From positions 19,585,501 to 19,649,500 of the forward strand of contig NC_092569.1 in NCBI RefSeq assembly GCF_037975245.1: a stretch of DNA of 64,000 bases, read 5' to 3'. The DNA is from Apostichopus japonicus (taxonomy: Eukaryota; Echinodermata; Holothuroidea; Aspidochirotida; Stichopodidae). A model generated the notes under the pieces. The model saw only the letters and a list, made by a program, of their open reading frames with translations, was not told where the DNA came from and ran no database searches. Positions 2,398 to 43,080 of the stretch are shown piece after piece. Each line of letters opens with the position of its first letter. The first letter of the stretch is position 1. The position numbers and the translations under genes were made by a program.

Positions 2398-5300
2398 AGT
2401 AATCAGCAACTCTTTGTAGGAGCGACTGAAGGAAAAGTTAACAGTGAGTATTTATTCATTTTCTATTAATTAACCCTTTTCTTATATTTTCTATTTCCTT
2501 TTAATCATACAATTTCTCATTGATTGATATTTTCATATCTCATAATCCATGACAAACATTTGTCATGGCAACATATGTTACAATTGTTATGATTACTAAC
2601 TCTGGTGTAATATGAGAAGAGATATATATTTTTATTTTACTTATTAATTCCTTCAGTCACAAGCAAGTCAATACATTTCGACCGTAGGAATTAACGACAG
2701 TTTGAACAAATCTTCGACATTATATATTTGAAATTTATACACAAATTGCATGAGAAGGCTATATATCAACATATGGTACGTTACACGTTGTAAAATAATA
2801 AAGGATGCTCGGTGGTCTTAAATATTTGTCAATTCATGGTTTCATGTTTTTTTCTCAGTATTTCAATCAATGTATATAAAAGAATTTAAGTTTATTTGTA
2901 TGTTGCATATGTTGCATATGTTATTTATATATTTTGCAATTTGTGTACCAAGCATTAAGCTTGTGTACATATACATCACACATGTTCCATGATTTTTTTC
3001 CGTACAAAGTAATAAACCTGAAACTTTTCTTGAAAAAGAGTTGTAATGTCTGAATTGAGTTTTACGTTCAAAAGCAAATTAGTAATAGTTTATGTTGTCA
3101 TGTAATTCAGAATGTACTCTTTTTTATTGTTTATTGTAGTATATCCCATACTCAACCTTCATTTTCATAGCTTCCACTTAACTTGAATTTTTCCGTTCAG
3201 TTCAAAATTGACCATCTATTATTTGTTTAACGTTACAACAGCTATTTGGAGAAGTGTCTTTGTGAAGAAGTTTTCAGTAATGTATTGATTTATAAAATAT
3301 CACTAAATTTCCAAGACTAGTGAAGGAATACCAGGCTATCTTTTATCATATCAATTGTAATAGTATTTTGAAAAACAAACGTTAGATTTAGTAAAACTTA
3401 TCAATCAACTAAAAAGCAAAACGTTCCTCTAAGTTATATAAGAATGCGCTTCTCTATCGCGTCTAATGACGGGTTCAAAGTCATTTTGTAATACTATTTT
3501 GAAAAAAAAAACAACCTCATGTCTTACTATTGCAGTCTTGCTCTTGTCTGCTGCAGTCATGTCTGTTGCAATCATGTCTGCAGCAGTCATGTCTGCTGCA
3601 GTCTTGTCTGCTGCAGTCTTGTCTGCTGCAGTCTTGTCTGCTGCTGCTGCTCTTGTCTGCTGATGCTGCTCTTGTCTGCTGTAGTCTTGTCTGCTGCAGT
3701 CTTGTCTGCTGCTGCTGCTCTTGTCTGATGCAGTCTTGTCTGCTGTAGTCTTGTCTGCTGTAGTCTTGTCTGCTGCAGTCTTGTCTGCTGCAGTCTTGTC
3801 TGCTGCAGTCTTGTCTGCTGCAGTCTTGTCTGCTGCAGTCTTGTCTGCTGCAGTCTTGTCTGCTGCAGTCTTGTCTGCTGCTGCTGCTCTTGTCTGATGC
3901 AGTCTTGCTGCAGTCATGTCTGCTGCAGTCTTGCAGTCTTGCTATTGATGTGTTAATCTAGCGAGACGAAATATATGATTGTTTAATTAAACCCATTTTG
4001 GGTTTACAAATCTGAAATATTCATTGATAAACTTCTGTCGTTACATGATAACATAATGACAAATCTTGAAGACAACTTTGTTCTCATGATATCTGAATCG
4101 CCCCTTGTCCTCCTTTTACAGACAATGTTTTACTTTATCAGCGTCCTGAATACCCAAGAGATTGTCACGAAGTGTTGCATCGTTGTTAATCAACAAGTTC
4201 CAGTGGTGTTTATCTCATTAAACCAGACGGTTATGCCGAACCTTTCGAAGTCTACTGTGATAACACCGCAGATGATGGTGGATGGACGGTAAGTAGTTCA
4301 AATTGAAATATGAATGTTGATGCCAAACATTAGCCTAATATTCAGCTTCTTTCAAATCAATGAGCAAAGTTTTAAAATATTAGCTAGTTTATTTCCCTCA
4401 TCCTTGACGTTCTTTTTAAACCAAACGATTAGCAGAAAATGCTTCAATAATATAACAATATTTGTACTTCACATTTGAGAAATAACAAGCAAGTCTGTGA
4501 AAAAAAGTCATTGATCGAAAGCTCAGCTGATGATGAACATGTTTACATTGTTTGTTTACGTTTTTCATAAAATTAATATTAACTTGATCCCAATGTATAT
4601 TTCATACTTAAATACGAAGAAATTGTATCTCTCATGACTTATGTTCAAATTACTTGTTCTGTAATGCAGATCATACAACGTCGGTTTGACGGAACGATTA
4701 ATTTTAACCGCAGCTGGGAAGATTATCAGCTAGGATTTGGTTTTCTTTCGAGTGAATTGTGGATCGGTAATAAGAAGCTTTCATACTTAACCAATCAAAA
4801 GAGATATCAATTCCGCATTGACTTGACGACAACAGATGGTTCGTCTTTCGATGTGACGTATGACGCTTTCCGAATAAGCGATGACTCCAACAACTACAAG
4901 ATCGTCAAAGCAGAAATTACTAACAGGACAGTAGGTAAATATATAGAACGTTTATTCATTTCTAAATAAGTCTTGTCTTGTCGAAAGAAGTTTCGATATA
5001 TGTGAGTAAATAAGGATTACACTGGATATGAAAACAATTAAGATAACTGAAATGTCACTATTAAAGAGAGTGATGATACCTTTATCAATATTCAAGCCCG
5101 AGCGGGTTTTTAAGTTAACTTCTCTCCGCCTTATTTCCTGTTTCTACTACACTGTGTTTGTTGTGTATAATGTGAAAACAACCAGCATACTGAACTGAAC
5201 TGAACTTACTAATTATTCCCCAGTTTGTAACATCTTTCTGTACAGTCTATCTGTTTAATTATATCATCTCCTAAGTCTGATCTTCATCTCATTGAGTTTT

Positions 5301-8300
5301 GCTTTATTCATTGTTGTTTATCTAATTTAGTGAACTTTAGCGATAACATCTTGATGGGATCGTAATATAGTTTTGGTGATAATATCTTTATGGGAACGTA
5401 ATATAGTTTTTATCAGTTACATTCACATTTGGAGTAATGCTGTCAAAATTGTCAACCAAACACAAAACCACTGCTTGAAGTTCTCACTCTTTACTTGCAA
5501 TTAGCAATACTGGTTATGTTTACTTGCGAAGTTCACTAAATCAATGGCTAATGTTTTTTATATTTTTTTATTCTGCTAGTCTTTGTAGATAACTACATTG
5601 AATGGTGTCCAACAAATAAAACCTACAATGAGTGTCAACTTTGCGAGGCTACCTGTGCAGATCCTGAAAGTTGTATCAATACTTCCTGCAAAGGATCTCA
5701 TTCGTGTGTCTGTCCTGACGGATTTTTGATGAACGGTGATAACTGCATTAGAATAGAGGACTGTGGATGTTTCATGGAAAATGAAACAGATGGAGAGAGG
5801 GGTGTATTGCTAAAAGTACGTGTTTTCTTTCAGATCGTGATATCTATTACCAATAGTGAAAATAATTTAATAGATGCTTTCAAACTGGAGTAAGTGGATC
5901 GATTTGCATTTGCCTCCGACCCCTTGCAACCCGCATCCTCTTCAACTTTGGATATACGCAGTTTTGCCAGTAAAGTTAAGAAAACTGATATATCTTGTAT
6001 ATGTTTGCAGTTTTTCATCTTATCACTACTTAAAGAAACTTTTTCAGATCCCTAAAGTTACTTATGATGCCTGTAACGATTTTCTACTTTCCAGGAAGGA
6101 GGAATTTACGTCTCTCCAAACTGTGACAAGAAATGTTCTTGTACGGATAATCATCTTTCCTGTGCCGATAGTTATCAATGCGATCCTAATGCAGATTGTG
6201 AAGAAAGAAACGGTTTGTTGCAATGTTACTGCCCGCCAGGATATAGCGGATACGGCATACAGTGTAGGCCTCCAGTCCTTTCGGACTGTAACGAACTGTA
6301 CAACATTGGCGTGAGAACAAGTGGTGTCTATGAAATCAAACCCACAAATTGGCTTGACTCTTCATTTGAAGTTTACTGTAATATGTCTGACGGGGGAGGC
6401 TGGACGGTAAGTGTGACAGTTTTTCTTAAACCAGTGATCCGCAAGTTTTAGGGCGACGACACACAAGTTATCTGGGAGGACCAAACTACGACCCACCAGA
6501 GCCTCGATTTTACACCCGTAAGCAAGTTTAAACAACGTTGCCGTATGTAGAACACAAGATTAGGCTACCCATTAGACGGAGAAAGTCGAATGACTAATTT
6601 ATTGCCACTGTGGTATTACTATCAGGAATTTATTTTTAGAAACTTCATAAAACTTTAACTATTGGTTGTTCCTTTGGATGAGAATTGATGTTTTATTTTT
6701 TATTTTGTTACGTGCAATAATTATGACATCACATTATTGGTGCTGGAAAACGATTCCAAATAACTATAATTAATATGTATGTATTTTCCTTAAGAACTAA
6801 ATCTTTACATTGATTATTTTAGGTATTTCAGCGTCGCGTTGATGCTTTACAAGATTTTTATCTTTATTGGGATGACTACAAGATTGGCTTTGGTAATCAA
6901 AGTCGGAACTTCTGGCTCGGAAATGAAAAGATACATAGCTTGACGAACCAAAGACAATATGAACTCCGGATCGACTTTGTTGACAAAGATGGTGATCCTT
7001 ACTACGCCAAATACGATTTCTTTCGTATCAGTGAAGGGAACGATAACTTCAGACTAGATGTTGGAAATTATTCTGACGGAGATGCAGGTCGGTTGATATC
7101 TCCCGATTAATCAATCCCATCATGTTATCGTCAGATTGACATCATATATCATGTTTATTTTATAACGAAGTGTATATAAAGAAGAATGTAATACTATTTG
7201 TATGAAGTCCACTAGCCAATAACTTACTAGTTTATACAAGCTGTTTTGCCTCTGTTGAAAATAAACCCCCGATGGTAGAGTCTGTTGACTTACTGTGGTA
7301 ATAACTTGTTGATCTAAGTAAGGAGAATATATCTATAAGGAAGAATTCTCTGGCCAAATAGCTGGACCTTACGACCTTTGGACCTACGAAAACTGAAACC
7401 CAAGACACTTCAGTTAGTAATATATAAACCCGCCATGTTATACAGTACCTAATTATTTCTATACTTCTTTGCATAAGACTCACACATAGTGAAAAGATTA
7501 GTTATTTATATTCGACAAGATAGACCGAATACAAGCAGTAATTATTAATGTTATCAGACATGTAATGTAACGACTAGACGTTTTTACAAATCCATTTCTC
7601 AAAAGAAAAGTATGGAAATAACACAGGATAAGATGATTATGGACCCTACGCAAATTTTCACTCATACGAATACACCCACGCGCGTGTGCACAAACACAAA
7701 CTTAAATATTGAATATAGTATCATTTCAATGGCCTGGAAACACGCGTAGCTCGTGTTAGAGGTTACGATAACAGATCTTACCCTCGGGAGTTGTTTTAAG
7801 TGGTAGTCTTAAAGTTCTATAAATTAAAGATACGTTCAAGTTGATCTTTATTGATTTATGCATTAACAACTTCTATCAAACTTTTGTTAACTTAAAAGTG
7901 ATGTAAAATATAATATAATATTTATGTACACCGCCAGTATGCTAGATAAAAGTAACGGTGATGAGATTATTATCGTTCGTTACAAACCAGTTCCAAAGAA
8001 TCAATTACAAATTGAGCCTTTAAATTCTCGACTAATCCAACCTACATGGATACATGTTTGCTGGCCTGGAACAGCTACGTCATAAAAAAAATCATTGTAT
8101 TGGAAGGATTAAATGTAGGCTAAGGGAGCTCACAACATAAAATAAATATATTACTAACTATTACATGACAACAGTAAACCAAATACATGGTATCTGTTCT
8201 TGTAAAGGAAAGATGAATCACTAGTTTAACGCTGAAACAGAACTGATCTGTATGACAATTGTCCTCTATTTCCAGTTTTTAAAAACTTATAGATCAAAAT

Positions 8301-9078
8301 AAAAACAGATTAAAAGATATTGATAACAAAAAAACCATATCAAAAATGAGCACACATGAATTAACTCCCTTTAGTTTTCAAAATACCAGATGGGACCGCT
8401 TGCGGTACTTATAAAAATATTGTGATGAAAATTAGCCTATACATATACCTCGACCATGTAGGTAGGATATTATGGTGATGTAATCATCGAAGAAAAATTC
8501 GTTACATATAGAAAATCATAATTAACTAAACGCTTACACAATGTTAACAATGGTTCAACAGCATAACAAGCCATACAAAGAAGTTGATAGCCTCTTTACC
8601 GTCCCCTTTCCCTTTCTACATATTTCGTTTTTAATAATCATAGATAATACACGACTTTTAGTTTAACACACGTTAATCAAAACCACATGTAATATGAAAT
8701 ATCGTTATTACTGGAATAACATTTTGCTAAGTATACTGAATCGATACAATGATTAAATTTTGATTTTCTTTTCTGTTTCTTCTTCTTGTGTATTTATTCA
8801 ACAGGTGATTCGCTGACCGACCATGATGACCAACTGTTCACTACACGAGACAATGATAACGATGATTATGACTATAGTGATTACAGCTCTGAAAAAACAA
8901 CTTAGCCCGTCGTGATGATGGTGCATGGTGGTACATGAATTATTACTATGATAATGATTATATTTCATCTCTCAACAGTCCCTATGCGAGTCATTCCTTT
9001 TATTGGGATACCCTTCCAGGTTTTTTTAATTACATTAAATTCACAGAGATGAAAGTTCGCGCAATCGATGAAGAGTGA
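2398..9078 (+). pseudogene. Unit 1: disabled FReD/TIL/EGF-like gene copy
   Basis: Exons by homology to unit 2: 2398-2443, 4122-4288, 4670-4934, 5580-5815, 6095-6406, 6823-7087, 8805-9078. The first exon, if any, lies before the window. Two lesions are visible. TAA at 4187-4189 falls inside the first fibrinogen domain, where unit 2 has TCA. One A is missing from the A run at 8892-8897 in the last exon, which gives TAG at 8903-8905. The TIL, EGF-like and central FReD exons remain open with good splice sites, so decay looks recent. Skipping 4122-4288 would break the frame (167 nt). The TAA would matter less if a downstream start were used; I think pseudogene is likelier. Confidence 0.7.
3536..3945. 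repeat. 15-bp minisatellite, unit 1 intron 2
   Basis: Tandem copies of GTCTTGTCTGCTGCA and variants (GTCATG, CTGTAG, CTGCTGCTGCTCTTG). It is absent at the same site in unit 2 (about 22740-22760), where a single TTGCAACCTTGCTCTTG seed remains. The open frames across it are repeat translations. Confidence 0.95.
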
Positions 9079-15100: not shown

Positions 15101-15205
15101 TAGAACTATGACTATCACTTTTCTTGCTTTCAAAACGCCTATAATCGCCTCCACTAGGAACATAATCTTAATCCAAAATTATTCCTAACCTCATCGCCCC
15201 TCAAT

Positions 15206-18010: not shown

Positions 18011-18127
18011 ATGGAGAATCAGCAAGAAACGATTATTTTCAAAATGTGGATCCCAAGAAAGCTACGATTTTTTATACAATTTTGTTTCTTCGTCCTGTCA
18101 AGAAATATTGTCTGTTTCCACGGAGAG
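18011..18127 (+). CDS. Unit 2 exon 1: signal-peptide exon
   Basis: The frame opens at ATG 18011 with a second in-frame ATG at 18044. The second Met is followed by basic residues (PRKLR) and a hydrophobic run (FFIQFCFFVLS), as in a secretion signal, so 18044 may be the true start. The exon ends at GAG with a strong donor GTGAGT (18128). It is phase 0, which matches exon 2. A longer open frame begins at 17921. The exon is missing from the homologous stretches of units 3 and 4. Confidence 0.6.
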
Positions 18128-21100
18128 GTGAGTACTTTTTCAATTCTAATATTTCAGACTTTGTGGAATTTATTTTATTATAAATTGTGATTATTGTATA
18201 AATAATTTAACGGTAAGTTTTACCTATTTCAATAAATTAAATGTTAAATATCATTTTACATACAATGTATAAAATAGTACTAACAATTTTCTTCGGTGAG
18301 GTAGATTTTAAATCCTGTTAGTTTTTCTGCCTTTAGTTGGATTTAAACTTTAACAAATTTCATTAACTATTCTTAACAGGCTTGCTAAAAAAAAACAGAC
18401 AAAAAACAAATGGGTTCCTAAAATTTAAATGTATTAGTTTTTATCCCCAACTCTAGGTAATATATTTTATTTTTTTCATTATATATTTTATACATATTTT
18501 TTTTCGATTGATTTCTAGACATGAAAGCTATAATTAAAAAGAAACTACTTGTTATTTAAAGTGAAGTGAAAAGTGTAAAGTATTTACTGTTGGCAGTTTT
18601 GTAGATAGTTGTCATCTCTCAATAAGGCCATGCAAGAGAAATCAAAAACACTTCTACTTTTGTTTTATGGAATTCCAGAAGTAAAAGCTAGACCTTACAA
18701 ATACATGGCATTTAAATGTTGCCCACTTTTAATTAACATTTGTAGGGACTATTGTTCAGAAAACTTTCCTGATTATTCTAAAAATTCCACTCGCGTCACA
18801 GGACGTCATTTAAAACAATATACAGACCATAGTTATATTTATTTCTCTCAATAAGTTTGTGTGTGTTGTTCCTATCTTGATGTCATATCCCAACAAAGGT
18901 CCACACTGGTAACATATGATTCAATGTGTAGATCTATTTCAATTGATTTCCAAAAAAGTACAACTAAAACATTGTATGTAAAACTAGCTCTCGTTGGACA
19001 AGCAGTTGTACAATCTATCTCCAATAAAACAGCAAACTCAGTGCTGTTTGATATTCTCGAAAAATGAATTTCTATTCTTTTAAATCAACCGACTGTTCAT
19101 TAGGCTTTTTAAAGCTATATGATATATCTTTATCTTCATTGGAGTTCTGTTTAATACAAGTTAAAGTATATTATTTAGCTGTTTATCAACTCTTATTGAG
19201 ATTGATCAAACAAAGACATCTATCTAGAGCCTGCTACTATTTAACATTAAGAGTAAATAAAATCTCATCTCGTCCATTCTGAGAACTTTAAGTGCCTGTC
19301 ATGATACTAATTTTAAGGTTTACTTCTAACCAAACTCAGACGAAACTTAATTGAGTGAATCAACTTCAAACGACTTTGACTTCAGTATTATCGTAGTTTG
19401 GAATTAAAAAAAAAATTGTACTAAAAATGTTGCATTACTTTATAATTAGCGGGCATACATTCCTTCTGAACCAGTTAGGATCAGCTTTACAAAATCTCAA
19501 ATTAAATGTTTCTAAACCTGTGTTGTATATTATATATATTATAGACAACTATTAAAAATGAAAAAGAAGAAGGGATCAAGAGGAATATAAAATGAGGCAA
19601 ATTCTGAAAGTATATGTACATTAAAACAGTCGTGACTATATTTCTCAAACAAATCAATCTAGAATACAATTGTTTTATACAAATTAAATCATATAAAACA
19701 AATTAAATACCTTTTTCTTAAGATTTAAAGTTTTCAACTTCAAGATTGGGACAACTTTATCTAAACTTTTACGCTGTAAACTTTTTCTGTCAAGTGCACA
19801 GTTTTGATCTACTCAATATTTTTACTTGCATTTGCGTCACCTGAAATTTCTCATACTACTCCTTCATACAACTATAAGTATAAGTTTAGTTTACAGTGTC
19901 AAATCATTCTTCATTGTAACGATAATGTATCATACAAAATAATTAAATATAATATTAATCCTTTCCCTCCTTAAAAAACAAGAACAATAAGTCAGAGAGG
20001 CGGTAGCCTAAAAGCGATGTCGTAGATAAAACGGTTTTAGTACAGTATCAAGATCGCTGATTCAATTCGTGGTAGAAGCATTTTCACATTGGTAATAGTA
20101 TCTTTACCTTCACACGCTCTTTACCTTATTCACAAATCCGACCGAAAAAAGAAACAAAGGCTTTGTGATGATATGTAGCTGCAAATTCTAAGGTAAAGAA
20201 ATATCGTTTATTTAGATAGTTGTCAATCAACTAACAGCGTTAAAAGAGTTTCTGTGTTCAGACTGTCAGAGTGTATCTTACGATAATTGATGCTTAATTC
20301 CTCCACCAATGTTCTAGACCTCGGCAAAATTCATAGCTTCAAAACACAACACTGAACATTTAAAGAGAAATCTGTGTAGCGGTTGCGTTGGCATTTGGTT
20401 AATGTATAAGGTAAACGGATCCTTAAAATGGGCAAATTTATAGAAAGCCTATGTAGATACACTGTAATTCATATCTAGGTATATGTTTAACAGTTCGCGA
20501 TCATGAGTACAAGAGTTTATTTGTGTGTTGTAACGGCGTTCTTTAGATTGACAAGTCAAACTTCAGGTGAATGTGAATTAATTTCATTGAAGTAACTTTT
20601 CCATTGGGTGATCAAAGGATATTCAAATCTTAGTTGAAAACGAATCGGCATCTAAATTTGTCATTATTAAAATTTAGATAATTATCTACAGTTATTAATC
20701 CCTGAGAGCAATATAAGAACCTAATGAAAACTGTTAAACAATGATCAGCATAAAGAAAATTATATGTCTGCAGAACAGAAACTTTTGATCAAATTATTTT
20801 TTTCGCGCTTATTTTCGTGTAATTAGTTCAATGAACACTTAAGCAATTTTAACCCATTCACTGGGTTAAAATGTAAATGTTAAAATGTGTGTGTTGTAAC
20901 GGCGTTCTTTATATTGAACGGTCAAACTTCAGATGAATGTGAATTAATTGCATTGAAGTGACGTTTCCATTGGGTGATCAAAGGATATTCAAATCTTAGT
21001 TGAAAACGAATCGGCATCTAAATTTGTCATTATTAAATTTAGATAATTATCTACAGTTAGATAACAGTGAGAGCAATATATCTACAGTGAGAGCAATATA

Positions 21101-24100
21101 TCTACAGTGAGAGCAATATAAGAACTTAATGAAAACTGTTAAACAATGATCAACATAAAGAAAATTATATGTCTGCAGAACAGAAACTTTTGATCAAATT
21201 TTTTTTTTCGCGCTTATTTTCGTGTAATTAGTTCAATGAACACTTAAAGCAATTTTAACCCATTCACTGTAAAATAAATCAATTTCTGCCAATTCTAATA
21301 ATAATAAAATAATCTCTCTGATTGCCCTACAACATTTTTCGGAATATACACAAATCAACACAAACCATTCATTGTACTATTTTTTTCTGAAAACAAAAGT
21401 TAACAGATTTTTTTTTTAATTGGTTTAATGATCTCAATGCATTTCAACATGCAACGTTTGAACTCGATTCCAACTCCTATACATTAGCTTTACCTCAATC
21501 CTTGCTGTTATTACTCAAGTTAAGTATAGGGAAGTATTTGCCATTTGCAGGAAACAGGCACAGCCGAGTCAATCTCGTACATGTTGCCCTCATAGTTCAC
21601 GATTGAAAATAAACTGTAAATAAGTAAATGACATTCAAGTAAAATTGAAAATGTTGGGGAAAATATGTTAACTATATTTATCGCTGATAACATATACATG
21701 ATGCTTTGATTCTCTTTTACTCAGAGTAATCAACAACTCTTTGTAGGAGCGACTGAAGGAAAAGGTCACAGTGAGTGTTTTTTCATTTTCTATTAATTAA
21801 CCCTTTTCTTATTTTTCCTATCCCCTGTTTATCGTACACTTTCTCATTGATTGATATTTTCATTCCTCATAATCCATGCCAAACATATGTCACGGCAACA
21901 TCTGTTAATATAATTATGATCACTAACTCTCGTGTAATATGAGAAGAGAAATATTTCTTCTACTTATTACTTCCTTCAGTCACAAGCAAGTAAATACATT
22001 TTGACAAAAAGAAATAACGAAAGCTTTGAAAAAATCTTCGACACTGTAGATTTCAAATTTGTAAACAACTTTCATGATAAAGCCTTTCTTTACTTGTCAA
22101 CATATGGTACGGTACACGTTGTGAAATAGGAAAATATGCTCGCTGGTCTTACATGTCAGTCAGATAATACGCCCATTTTTATATCAGTATTTATATATCA
22201 TTTTATATAAAGAACTATTTCAAAGGTCATTTACATTTGATTGCTTAACTTGTAGATTATCTAAGCAACCTTGGAAATTATCATCCAAGTTCTTTATTGC
22301 GTAAATAGTTGCAATTTGTGTATCAAAATATTAAGCTGTTATACATTTATGTCACATATGTTGGCAAGATTATATTCTGTACAAAAGCGAAAAACCTGAC
22401 ATAAACTCTTCATGGAAAGGAAGTGATGTCTGAACTGAGAATAACAATCAAATGCAAATTTAGATTTTGTTTTAATATTTTTCAGAATATCCTTTCATTT
22501 TGTTATTTTTTTTAATGTATATCTGATACTAAAATCTTTATTTTTCATATCTTTCACTAATCTTGAATTTGACCTTTTAGTTCAGATTTGACCGTTTATT
22601 TTTTTGTATAACGTTAATGCAACTTTATAGAGAAGTGTCTTTGTGACGAAATTTCAGTAATTTGGGTTTCATTTATAACATATCACTGAATATTCAAGAC
22701 TAATTGTAATAATATTTTGGAAAAAAAACCTCATTTCTTACTATTGCAACCTTGCTCTTGATGTGTTAAGTTAGCATTAAGTCGAGATGAAATATATGAT
22801 TGTTTAATTAAACTCCTTTTTGTTTTAAAAATCTGGCTGATTTACGGATAACCTTCTATCTTTACATTATAACGTAACAATAAATCTTGAAGACAACTGA
22901 GTTCTCATGATATCAGAATCACCACTTGTTCTCCTTTGACAGACTATTTTTTTCTTTATCAACGTCCTGAATACCCAAGAGATTGTCACGAAGTGTTGCA
23001 TCGTTGTTCATCTACAAGTTCCAGTGGTGTTTATCTCATTAAACCAGACGGTTATGCCGAACCTTTTGAAGTCTACTGTGATAACACCGCAGATGATGGC
23101 GGATGGACGGTACGTATTTCAAAATGAATTATGAACGTCGATGCCAAACATCAGCCGGATATTCAGCTTCTTTCACCTAATCAAGCACAGTTTTATAGAG
23201 TTAGCTCTCATGTTCCCTTAAGCCTTTAAATTCTTTTATGATCATGTTTACTTTTTTATACTTGTTTTCATTTTAAGTTGATCACAATATATATTTCATA
23301 CTAAACTATAAAAAAAATTCTACAATTTACCATGCTAGAACTCGTTTCATCTGTCATCCTTTGCATAATGTATCATAATTTGTATATGAAATACTTCTTA
23401 ACTCCGATGGTCAACTTCTTAAGATCTTCAGATGGGATTACTTCAGTTGTGGTTAACAATCAGCCATGGATTTAAACTTTATGTCACAAAATAAAGAAAA
23501 AATGATTTTTTGGAAACGTAAATGAATGGTTGGTTTTAATAATCTAATTTAACTTAATATCTTGTATGAACTATATTCAAATTACTTGTTTCGTTATGCA
23601 GATCATACAACGTCGGTTTGACGGAACGATTAATTTTAATCGCAGCTGGGAAGATTATCAGCTAGGATTTGGTTTTCTTTCGAGTGAATTGTGGATCGGT
23701 AATAAGAGGCTTTCATACTTAACCAATCAAAAGAGATATCAACTCCGTATTGACTTGACGACAACAGATGGTTCGTCTTTTTATGTGACGTATGACACAT
23801 TCCGAATAAGCGATGACTTCAGCAACTACAAGCTCGTCAAAGCAGATATAACCAACAGAACAGTAGGTAAATATATAGAAAAACTTTCAGATACGTTTAT
23901 TCATGTCCCAAATAGGTCTTTTCTGGTCGATAGAAGATTCGATATATCATAGGAAATAAGGATGCAGGATTTCGAAGGATATGACAAATTTCAAGCTGAT
24001 TTAAATGTTCACTATTAAATATTGTGATGATACCTTTATCAATATTCAAGCTTATAAGTTTTTTGTTTTGTTTACTTCCCTTCACCTTAATTCCTGTTTC

Positions 24101-27100
24101 TACTACACTGTTTTTGTTGTGTATTATGTGAAGGAAAAAATTAACACAATGAACTAAATTGAACTTACTAATTAACTCCCATAGTTACAACCTTCTGTAC
24201 AGCCTATGTCTACAGCTATATCATCTCCTAAGCCTAATCTTCATCTAATCTATTCATTCAATTTTTGCTTTATTCATTGTTTTTTGTCTAATTTAGCCAA
24301 CTACCTGTCCAACTGACTTGTTAAAAGTCAGTTTGAATTTTCAATTTTTAAATCTGTCTTCGTTTCAGTTTGTCTCTGACGAAGATCTAGCTAGGATTGA
24401 TAAGCCAGGCCCTCTAACTTATTCAGTTTAGGAAATTGCATTTGATCATAAGCTAGACTAAAGTCAAGTATCATTTCAAAATATTTTCGCATCAACTAGA
24501 ACGATCTTGAAATGTCACAGTTCCTTCTTGTGTATTAATACTTTTATACAAAGTGGTGTCGTTGTGGAGTATAAAAACTCAGACTCGGAACATATTTCGT
24601 AATTTATAGAAATTGGCAACCAAACACCAAACCACTGCTTGAAGTTATAACCCTTTATTAAGCCAAATTCGTTATGTTTCGTTACAGAGTTCATAATAAG
24701 TATAGCTAATTTTAAAGTTTATTTTTCTGATTCTCATAGGCTATGTAAATAACTACATTGAATGGTGTCCAACAAATAAAACCTACAATGAGTGTCAACT
24801 TTGCGAGGCTACCTGTGCAGATCCTGATAGTTGTGTCAATACTTCCTGCAAAGGATCTCATTCGTGTGTCTGTCCTGAAGGATTTTTGATGAACGGTCAT
24901 AACTGCATTAGAATAGAGGACTGCGGATGTTTCATGGAAAGTGAAACAGATGGAGAGAAAGGTGTATTGTTAGAAGTAAGTAATTTCTTTCAAATTGTGA
25001 TATCTATTACCAACAGTGTTACAATTTAAATGATGCTTTCAAAAACTGGGGTTAGTGGATCGATTTGCATTTGCCTCTGGCCTCTTCCAACCCGCACCCT
25101 CTTCAACTTTGGATATACACACTTTTGCCAGTAAAGTTAGTAAAACTGATATATCTTGTGCGTGTTTGCAGTATTTCATCTTATCAATACTTGAAGAAAC
25201 CTTGTCAGATCCCTAAAGTTACTGATGATGCATGTAACGATTACCTACTTTCTAGGAAGGAGGAATTTACGTCTCTCTAACCTGTGACAAGAAATGTTCT
25301 TGTATGAATAATGATCTTACGTGTGACGATAGTTATCAATGCGATCCTAACGCAGCTTGTGAAGAAAGGAACGGTATTTTACAATGTTACTGTCCGCCTG
25401 GGTTTAGCGGAGACGGCACACAGTGTAGGCCTACAGGCGGCACAGTCCCTTCTGACTGCAAAGAACTGTACAACAATGGCGAGAGAACAAGTGGCGTCTA
25501 TGAAATCAAACCCACCATTTGGCCTGACTCTCCGTTTGAAGTTTACTGTAATATGTCTGACGGGGGAGGCTGGACGGTAAGTGTGACAGTTTTCTTAAGC
25601 CAGTGATCCGCAAGCTTTTAGGTAGACGACACACAAGTCATCCATGAATACCAAAGCACGACCCACCAGAGCCCAATCCCTCAGAACGGACGTTCAAAAT
25701 ACATAAAAGCTAGTTTGGATTGTGATGTTCGATTTGATACCCGTAATCTAATTTAAACAACGTTGCGGTATGTAGAACACGGGATTAGGCTGCTCTTTAG
25801 ACGGAGAAAGTTGAATGACCAATTTATCGCCACTAGGAGCGCATTCCCTAAGAGGAAGCATTTTCTATGTTGTGTTATTACTTTCAGGAATTTATTATTA
25901 GAAACTTCACGAAACTTTACGTATTGGTTGTTCCTTGGATGAGGGTTTAAGGTTTTTTTTTTGTTATTTTTATATTAACGGGCAATAGTTTTGGCATCAA
26001 CATATTGGTGGTGAGAACCACTTTTAAACGACTGTAATTATGTAATACATGTATGTCCTTTAATAACTGAATATTTACGTTGATTGTTTTAGGTATTCCA
26101 GCGTCGCGTTGATGATTCACAAGACTTTTATCTTTATTGGGATGACTACAAGATTGGCTTTGGTAATCGAAGTCGGAACTTCTGGCTCGGAAATGAAAAG
26201 ATATATAGCTTGACGAACCAAAGACAATATGAACTCCGGATCGACATTGTTAACCGTTACGGCGCTCCTTACTACGCCAAATACGAGTTCTTTCGTATCA
26301 GTGACGAGAACGATAACTTCAGGCTAGATGTTGGAAATTATTCTGACGGAGATGCAGGTAGGTTAATATCTCCCGAATTATCAATCCTATCATGTTATTT
26401 TCGTCAGTTTGACATCATATATCATGTTTATTTTGTAACGAAGTGTTTATAAAGGAATAGGTAGTACTATTTGTATTAAGATCACTAGCCAATCACTTTC
26501 TAGTTTAAACAAGCTGATTTGCCTCTGTTGAAAATAAACTGATTAACCCGATGACAGAATCTGATTATTTACTTTAGTAATAGTTTGTTGATCCGAGTAA
26601 GGAGCGTATATCTATTAGAAAGAATCCTCTGGCCAGATAGATGGGCCCTTAGACCTAAGAACATTCAAAGTAAAGAGACTTCAGTTAGTAACATGTTCAA
26701 CCCGTCATGTTATACGTAACCTAACTATATTTATATTGTGCATAAGGCACACACATAGTGAAGAGACTAGCAACTTATATTCGACAAGATAGACCGAATA
26801 CTAGCAGTAATTGTTAATGTTATCAGACATGTAATGTGCGACCAAGTACTTTTAAAAATCCATTACTCAAAAGAAAAATAGGTAAATATCACAGTGAAAG
26901 ATGCTTATGTACCCTAAGCATGTCTTCGCGCAAATATACGCGCACGGCACTAACAAACTTCCGGGTAGCTTGTGTTAGAGGGTACGATAACAGATCTTTC
27001 CTACGAAGTTGGTTTAAGTGGTAGGTTTACAATTCTATAAATTAAAGATACGCTCAAGTTGATCTTTATTGATAGATGTATTAACAACTTTTAGTAAACT

Positions 27101-28298
27101 TTTGTTAACTTATTGTGATTAAACAACATGATATCACATGTATTTACACCGCCAGTATGCTAAATATAGGAGTAAATATGATAAGATTATTACCGTTTGA
27201 TTACAAACCAGCATCAAAGAATCAATCATAAATTGAGCCTGTTAAATTTCCGACTAATCCAGCCTACATGGCTACATGCTTGCTGACCTGGAACAGCTAC
27301 GTCATAAAATATCATTGTATTGGAAGGATTACATGTAGGCTAAGGGAGCTCACAGAATAAATTAAATATATTCCATACTATAACATGTAAACAGTAAACC
27401 AAATAAACCGTAGCTGTTCTTTTAAATAAAAGGTGGGACTCATGTAATATTGCACTGAAACAGAACTGTTCTGCATGACAATTGTCATCTTTTTCCAGGT
27501 TTTAAATACTTATAGATAAAAATAAAAACAGATTAAAAGAATATAGATAACAAAAATAAACTAATTAAAAATGGGCACACACGAATGAACTTCCTTTAAT
27601 TTTCAAACTACCAGATCGGGATACTCGTGCGGTACTTATAAATATTATGATGAAAGTAGCGTATACATATACCTCGACCATGTAGCTAGGAATTTATGGT
27701 GATATAACCATCAAAGAAAATTCGTAACATATAGAAAATCAGTATGAACTAAACGCTTACACAATATTAACAATAGTTCAACAACATAATAAGCCAAACA
27801 TAAGTGAGTTGATAACCCCTTTCCCTTCCCCTTCGCTTTCTACATATTTTCGTTTTTAATAATCATAGACAATAAACGACGTTTAGTTTAACATACGTTA
27901 ATCAAAACCACATGTAATATGAAATTTCGTAATTACTGATATAACATTTTGCTAAGCATACTGAATCGATACAATGATTTAATCTTTGAATGTCTTTCAG
28001 TTTCTTCATCTATTGTATTTATTCAACAGGTGATTCGCTGACCTACCATGATGACCAACCGTTCACTACACGAGACAACGATAACGATGACTACGATTAT
28101 AGTTATTTTAGCTCTGAATATAACAATGCAGCGGTTTATTATAATGGTGCATGGTGGTACATTGATTATTATTATTATTATTCATCTCTAAACAGTCCCT
28201 ATGGGAGTTATTACTGTTATTGGGGTAACCTTCCAGGTTATTATAATTACATTCAATATACAGAGATGAAAGTTCGCGCAATCGACGAAGAACCATAA
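18011..28298 (+). CDS. Unit 2: secreted half-FReD / TIL / EGF-like / FReD protein, 8 exons, apparently intact
   Basis: Spliced model: 18011-18127, 21725-21770, 22943-23109, 23602-23866, 24740-24975, 25256-25576, 26093-26357, 28030-28298 (TAA). Exons total 1686 nt, one open frame of 561 residues, and every intron is GT-AG. Residues 1-39 hold a signal-like hydrophobic stretch; 63-198 are the N-terminal half of a fibrinogen domain; 207-262 a TIL domain; 278-334 a cysteine-rich/EGF-like segment; 344-556 a full fibrinogen domain. Known of the families: FReDs bind carbohydrate or acetylated ligands in innate recognition, and TIL domains often inhibit proteases. A secreted recognition role is inference. 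It is the only copy in the window without a disabling change. The start may instead be Met at 18044, in the same frame, or an alternative first exon at 20503. This exact domain order is not one I recognise by name. Confidence 0.75.
20503..20566 (+). CDS. Unit 2 candidate alternative first exon
   Basis: ATG at 20503 reads MSTRVYLCVVTAFFRLTSQT and ends at donor CAG|GTGAAT in phase 1. It cannot join exon 2, which is open only in phase 0. It joins exon 3 (phase 1) in frame, giving a protein of about 528 residues without the linker exon. The hydrophobic run VYLCVVTAFF is a plausible but weak signal peptide. The same place in units 1 and 3 is an AT microsatellite. Confidence 0.35.
20527..21270. repeat. 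Tandem ~365-bp duplication in unit 2 intron 1
   Basis: About 20522-20870 and 20887-21270 repeat the same text, including the body of the candidate alternative first exon. The second copy has no in-frame ATG, with a stop just upstream. It also contains three perfect 20-bp repeats of TCTACAGTGAGAGCAATATA at 21061-21120 (the first copy slightly different). Confidence 0.85.
21725..21770 (+). CDS. Unit 2 exon 2: 46-nt linker exon
   Basis: Between acceptor TACTCAG and donor GTGAGT. Only phase 0 is open, and it reads SNQQLFVGATEGKGH before leaving in phase 1. Near-identical exons occur in unit 1 (2398-2443) and unit 3 (36671-36716). Both splice sites and the length are kept in all three, which supports it as real. 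Confidence 0.65.
22943..23109 (+). CDS. Unit 2 exon 3: first fibrinogen domain, N-terminal part
   Basis: Enters in phase 1 and leaves in phase 0 at GGWT. It shows the canonical FReD opening: RDCHE, then SSGVYLIKPDG, EPFEVYCD and DGGWT. The two cysteines (residue 69 and in VYC) fit the first FReD disulfide. The acceptor is TTTGACAG and the donor GTACGT. The unit 1 copy carries a stop here; the unit 3 copy is half deleted. Confidence 0.85.
23602..23866 (+). CDS. Unit 2 exon 4: first fibrinogen domain, central part
   Basis: The 265-nt exon starts IIQRRFDG and contains WEDYQLGFG, ELWIGN and YQLRIDL, the core of the FReD fold. It has candidate N-glycosylation sites NRS and NRT. It leaves in phase 1, but the next exon encodes TIL and not the C-terminal P subdomain, so this fibrinogen domain is only about half length. 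It has the same length and phases as exon 7, its counterpart in the second domain. Confidence 0.85.
24740..24975 (+). CDS. Unit 2 exon 5: TIL (trypsin-inhibitor-like) cysteine-rich domain
   Basis: Reads EWCPTNKTYNECQLCEATC, then CVNTSC, SCVCPEGF, and NCIRIEDCGC, with eleven cysteines between residues 208 and 262. The CP..x..YxxC...C...TC and CxCxxGF spacing is typical of TIL domains in serine-protease inhibitors and in zonadhesin- or von Willebrand-type proteins. Phase 1 in, phase 0 out at GVLLE with donor GTAAGT. Confidence 0.8.
25256..25576 (+). CDS. Unit 2 exon 6: cysteine-rich/EGF-like segment plus start of second fibrinogen domain
   Basis: One 321-nt exon. It opens EGGIYVSLTCDKKCSC, resembling the TILa/VWC-like tail that often follows TIL. 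An EGF-like motif follows (CDPNAAC, LQCYCPPGFSGDGTQC), then a second FReD opening (DCKELY, SGVYEIKP, FEVYCN, GGGWT). Acceptor TTTCTAG, donor GTAAGT. It has 3 codons more than the unit 1 copy. Confidence 0.85.
26093..26357 (+). CDS. Unit 2 exon 7: second fibrinogen domain, central part
   Basis: Starts VFQRRVD and carries WDDYKIGFG, NFWLGNEKI, YELRIDI and FFRISDEND, all standard FReD core blocks. The 265-nt length and phases 0 to 1 are identical to exon 4. Confidence 0.88.
28030..28298 (+). CDS. Unit 2 exon 8: second fibrinogen domain, C-terminal P subdomain
   Basis: Reads GDSLTYHDDQPFTTRDNDND, then GAWWY, SSLNSPYG and YTEMKVR before TAA at 28296-28298. The DxDND cluster at the usual calcium site is kept. 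The usual cysteine pair of this subdomain (NCA and CHxxxLNG) is replaced by non-cysteine residues, and a run of tyrosines coded by an ATT/TAT repeat sits where the second cysteine normally lies. Ligand specificity is therefore probably altered; that is inference. Confidence 0.85.
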
Positions 28299-35875: not shown

Positions 35876-37804
35876 CTATCTATTTTCGTTTGTTCGTTAG
35901 ATTTAAAAGTAAACCTTCGAGTGAATGTCAATGTATTGCATTGAAGTAACGTGTACAATGTGTAATCAAAGGATATTCAAACATTAGTTGAAAACGAATC
36001 CCCACGTTTAGATTGTCATAATTCAAATTTGGATAATTCTCTTCAGTTCTTATTTGTTCAGAGCAATACAACTTACTAAAAATTATTAAACATCGATCAG
36101 CATAAAGAAAATCAGAAGTCTGAAGAATAGAAACTTCGGTAAATTTTGGTATACATACTTCAATGAAACTTAAAAGCAAATTTTTACACAGTTCGCTGTC
36201 AAACATAATATTTTGTAAAAGGAGAGAAGTAAAGAAACTCTCTCTGATTGGCCCTTCTAATTGTTCAGAATATACACAAAATAACAAAAAACATTTATTG
36301 TACTATTTTCTGAGAAGAAAACTAAACAAAGTGTTTTGTAAGTATATTTAATGATCCCAACGCATTTCAACATGCAACAATTTAAGAATTTTAGACAATT
36401 TAGGACTGAACTCGATTCAAACTCCTATACAATAAGCTTAACTCAAACCTAGCTGTTATTACCCAAGTAAAGTATAGGAAAGTATTCGCCATTTGCAGGA
36501 AACAGGCACAGCAGATTCAATCTAGTACACATATGACCTCATAGTTCACGACTGAATATAACATGTAAATAAGTAAAGCACGAGTGAAATTGAAAATTTA
36601 GGAGAAAATATGTATACTATATTTATCGCTGATAACATATGCATAATGCCTTTGATTCTCTTTTACTCAGAGTAATCAGCAACTCTTTGTAGGAGCGACT
36701 GAAGGAAACGTTAAGAGTGAGTGTTTATTCATTTTCTATTAATTAACCCTTTTCTTATATTTTCTGTTTCCTGTTAATCATACAATTTCTCATTGATTAA
36801 TATTTTCATATCTCATAATCCATGACAAACATTTGTCACGGCAACATATGTTACAATTGTTATGATCACTAACTCTCGTGTAATATGAGAAGAGATATAT
36901 ATTTGTATTTTACTTATTAATTCCTTCAGTCACAAGCAAGTCAATACATTTCGAACGTAGGAATTAACGACAGTTTGAACAAATCTTCGACATTATATAT
37001 TTGAAATTTATACACAAATTGCATGAGAAGGCTATATATGAACATATGGTACGTTACACGTTGTAAAATAATAAAGGATGCTCGATGGTCTTAAATATTT
37101 GTTAATTCATGGTTTCATGTTTTTTCTCAGTATTTTAATCAATGTATATAAAAGAATTTAAGTTTATTTGTATGTTGCATATGTTGCATATGTTATTTAT
37201 ATATTTTGCAATTTGTGTACCAAACATTAAGCTTGTGTACATATACATCACACATGTTCCATGATTTTTTTCCGTACAAAGTAATAAACCTGAAATAAAC
37301 TTTTCTTGAAAAAGAGTTGTAATGTCTGAATTGAGTTTTACGTTCAAAAGCAAATTAGTAATAGTTTATGTTGTCATGTAATTCAGAATGTACTCTTTTT
37401 TATTGTTTATTGTAGTATATCCCATACTCAACCTTCATTTTCATAGCTTCCACTTAACTTGAATTTTTCCGTTCAGTTCAAAATTAACCATCTATTATTT
37501 GTTTAACGTTACAACAGCTATTTGGAGAAGTGTCTTTGTAAAGAAGTTTTCAGTAATGTATTGATTTATAAAATATCACTAAATTTCCAAGACTAGTTAA
37601 GGAATACCAGGCTATCTTTTATCATATCAATTGTAATAGTATTTTGAAAAACAAACGTTAGATTTAGTAAAACTTATCAATCAACTAAAAAGCAAAACGT
37701 TCCTCTAAGTTATATAAGAATGCGCTTCTCTATCGCGTCTAATGACGGGTTCAAAGTCATTTTGTAATACTATTTTGAAAAAAAAACAACCTCATGTCTT
37801 ACTA

Positions 37805-38170
37805 TTGCAGTCTTGCTCTTGTCTGCTGCAGTCATGTCTGCTGCAGTCATGTCTGCTGCAGTCATGTCTGCTGCAGTCATGTCTGCAGCAGTCATGTCTG
37901 CTGCAGTCTTGTCTGCTGCAGTCTTGTCTGCTGCAGTCTTGTCTGCTGCTGCTGCTCTTGTCTGCTGCTGCTGCTCTTGTCTGCTGTAGTCTTGTCTGCT
38001 GTAGTCTTGTCTGCTGCAGTCTTGTCTGCTGCAGTCTTGCCTGCTGCAGTCTTGTCTGCTGCAGTCTTGTCTGCTGCAGTCTTGTCTGCTGCAGTCTTGT
38101 CTGCTGCTGCTGCTCTTGTCTGATGCAGTCTTGCTGCAGTCATGTCTGCTGCAGTCTTGCAGTCTTGCTA
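37805..38170. repeat. 15-bp minisatellite, unit 3 intron 2
   Basis: Same repeat family as 3536-3945 with a different copy number and variant order. It ends right beside the deletion that removed half of exon 3. Confidence 0.95.
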
Positions 38171-41100
38171 TTGATGTGTTAATCTAGCATTAAGACGAGT
38201 GGTGTTTATCTCATTAAACCAGACGGTTACGCCGAACCTTTCGAAGTCTACTGTGATAACACCGCAGATGATGGTGGATGGACGGTTAAGTAGTTCAAAT
38301 TGAAATATGAATGTTGATGCCAAACATTAGCCTAATATTCAGCTTCTTTCAAATCAATGAGCAAAGTTTAAAATATTAGCTAGTATATTTCCCTCATCCT
38401 TGACGTTCTTTTTAACCAAACGATTAGCAGAAAATGCTTCAATAATATAACAATATTTGTACTTCACATTTGAGAAATAACAAGCAAGTCTGTGAAAAAA
38501 AGTCATTGATCAAAAGCTCAGCTGATGATGAACATGTTTACATTGTTTGTTTACGTTTTTCATAAAATTAATATTAAGCTGATCCCAAAGTATATTTCAT
38601 ACCATCATGACATATCTCATGACTTATGTTCAAATTACTTGTTCTGTTATGCAGATCATACAACGTCGGTTTGACGGAACGATTAATTTTAATCGCAGCT
38701 GGGAAGATTATCAGCTAGGATTTGGTTTTCTTTCGAGTGAATTGTGGATCGGTAATAAGATGCTTTCATACTTAACCAATCAAAAGAGATATCAATTCCG
38801 CATTGACTTGACGAAAACAGATGGTTCGTCTTTCAATGTGACGTATGACGCTTTCCGAATAAGCGATGACTCCAACAACTACAAGATCGTCAAAGCAGAA
38901 ATTACTAACAGAACAGTAGGTAAATATATAGAATTACTTTGTAGTACGTTTATTCATTTCTAAATAAGTATTGTCTTGTCGAAAGAAGTTTCGATATATG
39001 TGAGTAAATAAGGATTACACTGGATATGAAAAAAATTAAGATAACTGAAATGTCACTATTAAAGAGAGTGATGATACCTTTATCAATATTCAAGCCCGAG
39101 CGGGTTTTTAAGTTAACTTCTCTCCGCCTAATTTCCTGTTTCTACTACACAGTGTTTGTTGTGTATAATGTGAAAACAACCAGCATACTGAACTGAACTG
39201 AACTTACTAATTATTCCCCATTTTGTAACATCTTTCTGTACAGTCTATCTGTTTAATTATATCATCTCCTAAGTCTGATCTTCATCTCATTAAGTTTTGC
39301 TTTATTCATTGTTGTTTATCTAAGTTAGTGAACTTTAGCGATAACATCTTGATGGGATCGTAATATAGTTTTGGTGATAATATCTTTATGGGAACGTAAT
39401 ATAGTTTTTATCAGTTACATTCACATTTGGAGTAATGCTGTCAAAATTGTCAACCAAACACAAAACCACTGCTTGAAGTTCTCACTCTTTACTTGCAATT
39501 AGCAATACTGGTTATGTTTACTTGCGAAGTTCACTAAATCAATGGCTAATGTTTTTTATATTTTTTTATTCTGCTAGTCTTTGTAGATAACTACATCGAG
39601 TGGTGTCCAACAAATAAAACCTACAATGAGTGTCAACTTTGCGAGGCTACCTGTGCAGATCCTGATAGTTGTATCAATACTTCCTTCAAAGGATCTCATT
39701 CGTGTGTCTGTCCTGACGGATTTTTGATGAACGGTGATAACTGCATTAGAATAGAGGACTGTGGATGTTTCATGGAAAATGAAACAGATGGAGAGAGGGG
39801 TGTATTGCTAAAAGTACGTGTTTTCTTTCAGATCGTGATATCTATTACCAATAGTGAAAATAATTTAATAGATGCTTTCAAACTGGAGTTAGTGGATCGA
39901 TTTGCATTTGCCTCCGACCCCTTGCAACCCGCATCCTCTTCAACTTTGGATATACGCAGTTTTGCCAGTAAAGTTAGGAAAACTGATATATCTTGTATTT
40001 GTTTGCAGTTTTTCATCTTATCACTACTTAAAGAAACTTTTTCAGATCCCTAAAGTTACTTATGATGCCTGTAACGATTTTCTACTTTCCAGGAAGGAGG
40101 AATTTACGTCTCTCCAAACTGTGACAAGAAATGTTCTTGTACGGATAATCATCTTTCCTGTGACGATAGTTATCAATGCGATCCTAATGCAGATTGTGAA
40201 GAAAGAACGGTTTGTTGCAATGTTACTGCCCGCCAGGATATAGCGGATACGGCATACAGTGTAGGCCTCCAGTCCTTTCGGACTGTAACGAACTGTACAA
40301 CATTGGCGTGAGAACAAGTGGTGTCTATGAAATCAAACCCACAAATTGGCTTGACTCTTCATTTGAAGTTTACTGTAATATGTCTGACGGGGGAGGCTGG
40401 ACGGTAAGTGTGACAGTTTTTCTTAAACCAGTGATCCGCAAGTTTTAGGCCGACGACACACAAGTTATCCGGGAGGACCAAACTACGACCCACCAGAGCC
40501 TCGATTTTACACCCGTAAGCAAGTTTAAACAACGTTGCCGTATGTAGAACACAAGATTAGGCTACCCATTAGACGGAGAAAGTCGAATGACTAATTTATT
40601 GCCACTGTGGTATTACTATCAGGAATTTATTTTTAGAAACTTCATAAAACTTTAACTATTGGTTGTTCCTTTGGATGAGAATTGATGTTTTATTTTTTAT
40701 TTTGTTACGTGCAATAATTATGACATCACATTATTGGTGCTGGAAAACGATTCCAAATAACTATAATTAATATGTATGTATTTTCCTTAAGAACTAAATC
40801 TTTACATTGATTATTTTAGGTATTCCAGCGTCGCGTTGATGCTTTACAAGATTTTTATCTTTATTGGGATGACTACAAGATTGGCTTTGGTAATCAAAGT
40901 CGGAACTTCTGGCTCGGAAATGAAAAGATACATAGCTTGACGAACCAAAGACAATATGAACTCCGGATCGACTTTGTTGACAAAGATGGTGATCCTTACT
41001 ACGCCAAATACGATTTCTTTCGTATCAGTGACGAGAACGATAACTTCAGACTAGATGTTGGAAATTATTCTGACGGAGATGCAGGTCGGTTAATATCTCC

Positions 41101-43080
41101 CGATTAATCAATCCCATCATGTTATCGTCAGATTGACATCATATATCATGTTTATTTTATAACGAAGTGTATATAAAGAAGAATGTAATACTATTTGTAT
41201 GAAGTCCACTAGCCAATAACTTACTAGTTTATACAAGCTGTTTTGCCTCTGTTGAAAATAAACCCCAGATGGTATGTTGATGATGTTGACTTACTGTGGT
41301 AATAACTTGTTGATCTAAGTAAGGAGAATATATCTATAAAGGAAGAATTCTCTGGCCAAATAGCTGGACCTTACGACCTTTGGACCTACGAAAACTGAAA
41401 CCCAAGACACTTCAGTTAGTAATATATAAACCCGCCATGTTATACAGTACCTAATTATTTCTATACTTCTTTGCATAAGACTCACACATAGTGAAAAGAT
41501 TAGTTATTTATATTCGACAAGATAGACCGAATACAAGCAGTAATTATTAATGTTATCAGACATGTAATGTAACGACTAGACTTTTTTACAAATCCATTTC
41601 TCAAAAGAAAAGTATGGAAATAACACAGGATAAGATGATTATGGACCCTACGCAAATTTCCACTCATACGAATACACCCACGCGCGTGTGCACAAACACA
41701 AACTTAAATATTGAATATAGTATCATTTCACTGGCCTGGAAACCCGCGTAGCTCGTGTTAGAGGTTACGATAACAGATCTTACCCTCAGGAGTTGTTTTA
41801 AGTGGTAGTCTTAAAGTTCTATAAATTAAAGATACGTTCAAGTTGATCTTTATTGATTTATGCATTAACAACTTCCATCAAACTTTTGTTAACTTAAAGT
41901 GATGTAAAACATAATATCACATTTATGTACACCGCCAGTATGCTAGATAAAAGTAACGGTGATGAGATTATTATCGTTCGTTACAAACCAGTTCCAAAGA
42001 ATCAATTACAAATTGAGCCTTTAAATTCTCGACTAATCCAACCTACATGGATACATGTTTGCTGGCCTGGAACAGCTACGTCATAAAAAAAATCATTGTA
42101 TTGGAAGGATTAAATGTAGGCTAAGGGAGCTCACAACATAAAATAAATATATTACTAACTATTACATGACAACAGTAAACCAAATACATGGTATCTGTTC
42201 TTGTAAAGGACAGATGAATCACTAGTTTAACGCTGAAACAGAACTGATCTGTATGACAATTGTCCTCTATTTCCAGTTTTTAAAAACTTATAGATCAAAA
42301 TAAAAACAGATTAAAAGATATTGATAACAAAACAACCATATCAAAAATGAGCACACATGAATTAACTCCCTTTAGTTTTCAAAATACCAGATGGGACCGC
42401 TTGCGGTACTTATAAAAATATTGTGATGAAAATTAGCCTATACATATACCTCGACCATGTAGGTAGGATATTATGGTGATGTAATCATCGAAGAAAAATT
42501 CGTTACATATAGAAAATCATAATTAACTAAACGCTTACACAATGTTAACAATGGTTCAACAGCATAACAAGCCATACAAAAGAGTTGATAGCCTCTTTAC
42601 CGTCCCCTTTCCCTTTCTACATATTTCGTTTTTAATAATCATAGATAATACACGACTTTTAGTTTAACACACGTTAATCAAAACCACATGTAATATGAAA
42701 TATCGTTATTACTGGAATAACATTTTGCTAAGTATACTGAATCGATACAATGATTAAATTTTGATTTTCTTTTCTGTTTCTTCTTCTTGTGTATTTATTC
42801 AACAGGTGATTCGCTGACCGACCATGATGACCAACCGTTCACTACACGAGACAATGATAACGATGATTACGACTATAGTGATTACAGCTCTGAAAAAAAC
42901 AACTTAGCCCGTCGTGATGATGGTGCATGGTGGTACATGAATTATTACTATGATAATGATTATATTTCATCTCTCAACAGTCCCTATGCGAGTCATTCCT
43001 TTTATTGGGATACCCTTCCAGGTTCTTTTAATTACATTAAATTCACAGAGATGAAAGTTCGCGCAATCGATGAAGAGTGA

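Follow-up and report, generated by a model that had tools for sequence, protein, structure and literature searches.

A candidate fibrinogen-related protein family with an additional half fibrinogen domain in the sea cucumber Apostichopus japonicus

A 64,000-nucleotide stretch of the Apostichopus japonicus genome (hereafter the window; C9:19585501-19649500, contig C9 being NC_092569.1, in an assembly of 671,581,487 bp and 35 contigs) contains a gene, copy B, whose predicted protein carries a fibrinogen-related domain (FReD) without its C-terminal third, then a TIL domain, a TILa/EGF-like segment and a complete FReD. With a probability of roughly one half, we read copy B as intact and as belonging to a large fibrinogen-related protein (FREP) family built in this order, in which the half-FReD would be a conserved scaffold and the complete FReD would carry a variable head. 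The eight exons, with GT-AG at every intron border and matching phases, join into one frame of 561 residues, which confirms the gene structure proposed in the initial annotation. In the following list and throughout, FReD1 is the half domain, FReD2 the complete one, and a, b and c are their successive exon-encoded parts.

Exon 1, 18011..18127, + strand: signal-peptide-like; translation possibly begins at its second ATG (18044)
Exon 2, 21725..21770, + strand: linker; its acceptor is kept in copies A and C
Exon 3, 22943..23109, + strand: FReD1 part a, with the third cysteine typical of FReD1
Exon 4, 23602..23866, + strand: FReD1 part b, with a phase-1 donor at its end
Intron 4, 23867..24739, + strand: without a detected remnant of a terminal FReD exon in three forward frames
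Exon 5, 24740..24975, + strand: TIL domain
Exon 6, 25256..25576, + strand: TILa/EGF_3, then FReD2 part a
Exon 7, 26093..26357, + strand: FReD2 part b, with a phase-1 donor at its end
Exon 8, 28030..28298, + strand: FReD2 part c (P subdomain, Tyr-rich variable segments, stop)

A Pfam scan of the spliced protein, the domain prediction that the initial annotation had suggested as a check, returned Fibrinogen_C (partial), TIL, overlapping TILa and EGF_3, and Fibrinogen_C (complete); the annotated succession of a C-terminally truncated FReD, TIL, EGF-like segment and complete FReD is thereby borne out, with TILa added as a domain not named before. The FReD1 half alone scored 134.2 bits and ended at profile position 125 of 221, and FReD2 covered positions 2-219 of 221 with 173.3 bits, a complete domain that makes copy B a member of the FREP/FReD family. 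On its Pfam scores the TIL domain (residues 208-260; 25.0 bits in the whole protein and 28.2 bits in the middle piece, with a cut-off of 24.5) is of the ten-cysteine type; TILa lies at residues 272-321 and EGF_3 at 303-334. No FN3, VWD or C8 domain appeared in the Pfam scan of this protein, and the sole match in NCBIfam was a short fibrinogen-like motif model. A search of viral contigs returned no relative. Intron 4 of copy B yielded no terminal FReD exon by tblastn over the 64-kb window or by Pfam on its three forward frames, and introns 4 of the other two tandem copies in the window, A and C, yielded none by tblastn, the sole search used there. The TIL exon opens at a phase-1 acceptor.

The TIL exon has at least 150 matches in the genome at E ≤ 0.001, a lower bound given that 627 candidates were seen and 150 of them scored, all of which passed; as read from the table, 139 of these 150 lie on C9 and 11 on C14, C15, C20 and C22. 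We examined 29 TIL loci, namely three in the window, 20 loci of 10 kb (L009-L028) and six that are more distant (L029-L034), for three of which L037-L039 supplied additional upstream sequence, L001-L008 being repeats of loci already counted. FReD parts a and b precede TIL in 27 of the 29, on two chromosomes and including one locus on C20 (L033), and among the loci sharing the order the identity of TIL to copy B falls to 37%. Between FReD1 a+b and TIL no exon c was detected by tblastn in any of these 27 loci (E ≤ 10 in the window, 0.001 for L009-L028 and 0.05 for the distant loci). The order continues to exon c in 26 of them, in some as a partial match, the last exons of L022 lying outside the fetched stretch; FReD1 exon b of L021 is only half matched, and exon a of copy C is damaged. 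As estimated from match ends, FReD1b and TIL are 195-879 nt apart, whereas FReD2b and exon c are separated by 1235-1722 nt; the shortest of the former spacings (195 nt in L033 and 247 nt in L029) cannot hold an exon c, since the terminal segment of copy B is coded by 267 nt. In distant paralogues the half-FReD matches its best query at 51-75% identity. A gene at C9:29.74 Mb (L030 with L037) has two half-FReDs ahead of the complete FReD, part a of the middle one having been read by eye. The window copies belong to an array of 15 copies at 19.35-19.66 Mb on C9, ten of which (B, L009, L010, L012, L013 and L016-L020) have a single open frame over exons 3-8 with AG/GT at all sites; L011, L015, A and C carry stops, exon 7 of L014 is shifted, and L020 has lost TIL cysteines.

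Exon b sequences from 21 of the 29 loci gave a tree of 41 tips in which one branch (Shimodaira-Hasegawa-like approximate likelihood ratio test, SH-aLRT, 97.7; bootstrap 100) split all 19 FReD1 tips from FReD2. On the FReD2 side the tree also placed the middle half-FReD from C9:29.74 Mb. Of the 171 pairs that 19 loci can form, 138 were more similar in FReD1 than in FReD2 and 32 less so. The ratio of non-synonymous to synonymous substitution rates (dN/dS), taken from nine intact array copies, rose from 0.22 (0.13-0.38) in FReD1 through 0.31 (0.18-0.55) in FReD2 a+b and 0.50 (0.30-0.91) in TIL plus TILa/EGF to 0.70 (0.39-1.27) in exon c; the FReD1 ratio reached the exon c value in 0.35% of bootstraps. 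Judged by these ratios, FReD1 is under purifying selection. A third cysteine is present in FReD1 exon a in 26 of 27 cases, and the 23 listed FReD2 exon-a matches have two cysteines, or a single one in truncated matches. In the ten intact copies, exons 3-8 together hold 25 or 26 cysteines (23 in L020), so that the extra cysteine may be paired or unpaired. The motif GFGFLxxE occurs in 19 of 19 FReD1 copies and in none of the 22 FReD2 or middle copies. Three peptides with this motif (NGFGFLNTEF, HGFGFLNGEF and NGFGFLGSEF) appear, in the passages concerned, among bioinformatic picks from proteomic data on the cell-free coelomic fluid of Holothuria tubulosa (PMC13208588); they are a lead only, as FReDs outside the family may share the motif.

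Amino-acid divergence is greater in the terminal exon of FReD2, whose segment between RDNDND and EMKVR has indels and consists of Tyr to 24% (126/522 residues). The last exon of copy B (28030-28298) is itself extremely Tyr-rich, a composition that might matter for adhesion or cross-linking, and its single cysteine stands at a column where the other aligned copies have none. In the passages on known FReDs in PMC3908420, the P subdomain carries the calcium and ligand sites. For FIBCD1 and TL5A the same passages place a disulfide beside the calcium site, where it maintains a cis-peptide; the acetyl group is bound by main-chain nitrogens there, in a pocket lined by a histidine. When copy B was aligned with ficolin-2, both P-domain cysteines and the histidine were absent at the aligned positions, so that the residues of an acetyl pocket are lacking, and FTTRDNDND of copy B aligned with FSTKDQDND of ficolin-2, which retains an Asp-rich calcium site as far as the motif goes. 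By eye, the other array copies have no cysteine at either pocket column (the cysteines that B, L011 and L015 do have in this exon lie at other places), and seven distant members (L021, L028, L029, L030, L031, L033 and L034) carry the first pocket cysteine, in a CA motif. Judged by these columns and the retained Asp-rich motif, the array has lost the usual pocket and kept the calcium motif; lectin activity of FReD2 is uncertain on these alignments.

The proposed family could have arisen from a cassette of TIL, TILa/EGF with FReD part a, and FReD part b, flanked by phase-1 introns, if such cassettes were repeated or joined ahead of one terminal exon; the half-FReD would then exist through this joining, of which the two half-FReDs of the C9:29.74 Mb gene would be an instance. 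Without a P subdomain, and hence without the known ligand pocket, the half-FReD would act as a constant scaffold whose extra conserved cysteine perhaps cross-links chains; TIL-TILa/EGF would form a disulfide-rich stalk, as in FCGBP, and the FReD2 P subdomain, with its variable segments rich in Tyr, Ser, Asn and Asp, would provide the surface for recognition. Such proteins would be secreted and would function in the coelomic fluid or matrix, in defence or regeneration. A bolder proposal, possible and in our judgement rather doubtful, is a genome-encoded constant/variable recognition system of at least a hundred candidate genes, most of them on a single chromosome and some in tandem arrays, in which the conserved half-FReD would be a domain of its own (perhaps oligomerizing by the extra cysteine), variable Tyr/Ser/Asp-rich P-subdomain segments with indels would replace the acetyl pocket in the array, and cassette repetition would add further half-FReDs.

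Gene borders are hard to see in tandem arrays, and exons 3-4 and 5-8 could belong to different transcripts, through two neighbouring genes or an artefact of the gene model; this is highly improbable given that FReD1b has a phase-1 donor without a terminal exon and TIL starts at a phase-1 acceptor, that the two lie 195-879 nt apart, and that their linkage recurs in 27 of 29 loci on two chromosomes. One gene comprising the copy B exons is supported by this genomic evidence. Alternative splicing could make exon 4 join exon 8, giving a short form with one complete FReD (FReD1 a+b, FReD2 c) beside the long form. Exons 4 and 8 are both phase 1, exons 5-7 measure 822 nt (a multiple of three), FReD1 is strongly constrained, and joining exons 3+4+8 gives a Fibrinogen_C match over profile positions 2-219 of 221 with 161.7 bits, a score between those of the half alone (134.2) and FReD2 (173.3); however, FReD1 part b of copy B and its array ends in a sequence of the VKADITNRTV type, unlike the FReD2 type that leads to exon c (DVGNYSDGDA), and we regard such a short form as unlikely. 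The half-FReD might also be a functionless passenger, a truncated remnant of a duplication tolerated in the protein, as would fit its lack of the P subdomain, the site of calcium and ligand sites in known FReDs as far as the passages in PMC3908420 go. Against this stand the dN/dS of FReD1, the lowest of the four segments (0.22, with an interval overlapping that of FReD2 a+b), and the distant paralogues, which keep the half-FReD at 51-75% identity to the best query and retain the third cysteine; a passenger is accordingly a distinctly unlikely account.

The initial annotation had further suggested that a lectin fused to a protease-inhibitor-like module could couple recognition with protease control, the TIL domain inhibiting a serine protease when the FReD binds its target. 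The TIL domain passes the Pfam cut-off, and TIL alone aligned better to bee chymotrypsin inhibitor (E value 0.0016) and Ascaris trypsin inhibitor (0.0047) than to FCGBP (0.03), with fibrillin EGF at 0.00077 and VWF at 0.015. TILa adjoins it, however, and the TIL-TILa pair together best matched FCGBP (PDB 8rde; E 9.6e-22, over several FCGBP repeats); the FCGBP-type assignment rests on the pair because the matches of TIL alone do not decide. We also compared the loop between Cys 5 and Cys 6, whose middle residue we take to be P1, the reactive-site position of TIL inhibitors, in 30 TIL cores. In 13 of the 15 array copies, copy B among them, the loop is four residues long and includes an N-x-S/T sequon (two copies have lost cysteines), as against three residues in the bee inhibitor; the 12 distant cores have three residues with E (6), N (2), V, S, D or R in the middle, the Arg belonging to a distant C15 member as a point in favour of inhibition, and the closing loop cysteine is missing in 3 of the 30 cores. 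Copy B lacks a three-residue reactive loop with a suitable P1, and the P1-equivalent is not conserved in the family. Tentatively, then, the family does not look like one of inhibitors, and single members may be; with the acetyl-pocket residues also absent in copy B, the fusion of lectin and protease inhibitor has become a weak proposal and a very unlikely one.

Several observations weigh against placing copy B in a family whose half-FReD is a conserved scaffold and whose head varies. The loci were chosen by their TIL match, and the counts cover TIL loci, not all FReD genes; in the longer introns a strongly diverged exon c could escape tblastn; and two of the 29 loci (C15:5.09 and C9:6.45) have the order TIL-EGF-FReD, with no FReD1 found in 8 kb upstream. 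The dN/dS intervals of FReD1 and FReD2 a+b overlap, and FReD2 exon a alone is lower, at 0.11. A test for positive selection in exon c did not show it, the segment from RDNDND to EMKVR giving a dN/dS of 0.77 (0.42-1.49); the variability of exon c may be relaxed constraint, and its synonymous rate (dS) is higher (0.173 vs 0.117). The C15 FReD2 part a has three cysteines, so that the extra cysteine is not wholly specific to FReD1, and it may pair elsewhere. A structure model of the TIL exon built from three near-identical rows was poor (mean predicted local distance difference test, pLDDT, 37.6).

A FReD is generally regarded as a single whole fold whose pocket lies in its last third. That a large family retains two thirds of one, under constraint no weaker than that on the corresponding part of the adjacent complete FReD, suggests that the A+B part can serve alone. 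No named family with the order half-FReD, TIL, TILa-EGF and FReD was found in the open-licence literature of PubMed Central (PMC), in line with the view first expressed in the initial annotation; the parts are known, and neither their arrangement nor its conservation was found described in that literature. The nearest precedent in the same species is the FREP expansion described by Zhang et al. (2017), in which the genes cluster mainly on linkage group LG02, include a 21-gene tandem cluster and are up-regulated in visceral regeneration (PMC5638244, in the passages concerned). The two share expanded tandem FReD genes mostly on one linkage group; they differ in that a search of that paper's main text for TIL and EGF found neither term and its relevant passages do not describe a half-FReD or the order, and C9 is not equated here with LG02. 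The half-FReD architecture is a pattern to look for in that regeneration-linked expansion. Holothurian tenascin-like transcripts with FBG, TILa and EGF domains are mentioned in passages of three papers (PMC5897022, PMC7916379 and PMC10381214); the contigs of PMC5897022 and PMC7916379 share FBG and TILa with copy B, and EGF too in the review, but these passages do not give an order, a half domain or a family size. Tenascins have FN3 repeats between EGF and FReD, and copy B, with no FN3 in its Pfam scan, is not a tenascin. With FCGBP, a mucosal VWD protein, and zonadhesin (PDB 8rde; passages of PMC1325057) copy B shares a colinear TIL and TILa, but no VWD or C8 was found in it and its module lies between fibrinogen domains. 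Mollusc FREPs likewise add a module to a FReD, an IgSF domain, in contrast to the half-FReD with TIL-TILa/EGF of copy B. Ficolin, TL5A and FIBCD1 share with copy B a complete FReD, the Asp-rich calcium-site motif and GAWWY, but the P-domain cysteine pair and His are absent at the aligned positions of copy B, whose gene has the extra half-FReD.

Within the window, tblastn with the eight parts found three tandem copies, of which B alone is intact. The other two are:

Copy A, 2398..9078 (end approximate), + strand: exon order as in B from exon 2 on; probable pseudogene
Copy C, 36671..43080 (end approximate), + strand: exon order as in B from exon 2 on; probable pseudogene

In copy A, FReD1 exon a contains a stop and the last exon has lost one base; in copy C a satellite replaces the first half of FReD1 exon a, the TILa/EGF exon is frameshifted and one TIL cysteine is lost. 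The two share 97.9% identity over a length of 8 kb. Between B and these copies, exons 4-8 are 84.9-94.7% identical and introns 3-7 59.3-88.1%, and the greater likeness of the exons makes the shared architecture more than chance. Against B, dN/dS was 0.43 (95% 0.29-0.62) for A, over 497 of 502 codons after exclusion of those with stops or gaps, and for C it was 0.45 (0.31-0.66); the corresponding values were 0.22 (0.09-0.57) and 0.28 (0.10-0.81) for FReD1, and 0.46 (0.27-0.82) and 0.49 (0.29-0.90) for FReD2.

The copy B product is probably secreted, a prediction based on the hydrophobic exon 1 and its conservation 5' of two paralogues in the array (L035, 100% over 39 residues; L036, 83% over the matched part). 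Because the first ATG (18011) is ACG in L036, the sole informative paralogue, and the second ATG (18044) is kept there, translation may start at 18044 and give a protein of 550 aa. An alternative signal exon at about 20504-20566, with an acceptor at 21747, was dropped, as AT repeats occupy this stretch in copies A and C and exon 1 (18011) recurs 5' of two paralogues. The same region of copy B holds a local duplication of about 0.4 kb (20519-20872 and 20885-21275) with a signal-peptide-like frame (MSTRVYLCVVTAFF...), its donor being kept in one copy only and AT repeats standing there in A and C.

Among the remaining features of the window, 51275-56632 is the remnant of a fourth unit, in which DNA resembling the upstream flank and the start of copy B (16912-17781 and 18117-19533, with nearly all of exon 1 missing) is joined to DNA resembling the downstream flank of copy A (10216-11920); tblastn gave no FReD exon match in it. 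Remains of non-LTR (long terminal repeat) retrotransposons lie at 12265-15928 and 48436-50095, both on the - strand, with a Pfam endonuclease in the open reading frame (ORF) 14027-14938 and a reverse transcriptase in the ORF 49526-50095, the other ORFs being transposon-like by eye only. A short-unit satellite, open in several frames, occupies 3432-3957 and 37718-38183 and in copy C extends into FReD1 exon a, and 59445-61056 is a block of direct and inverted repeats that are about 73-90% identical.

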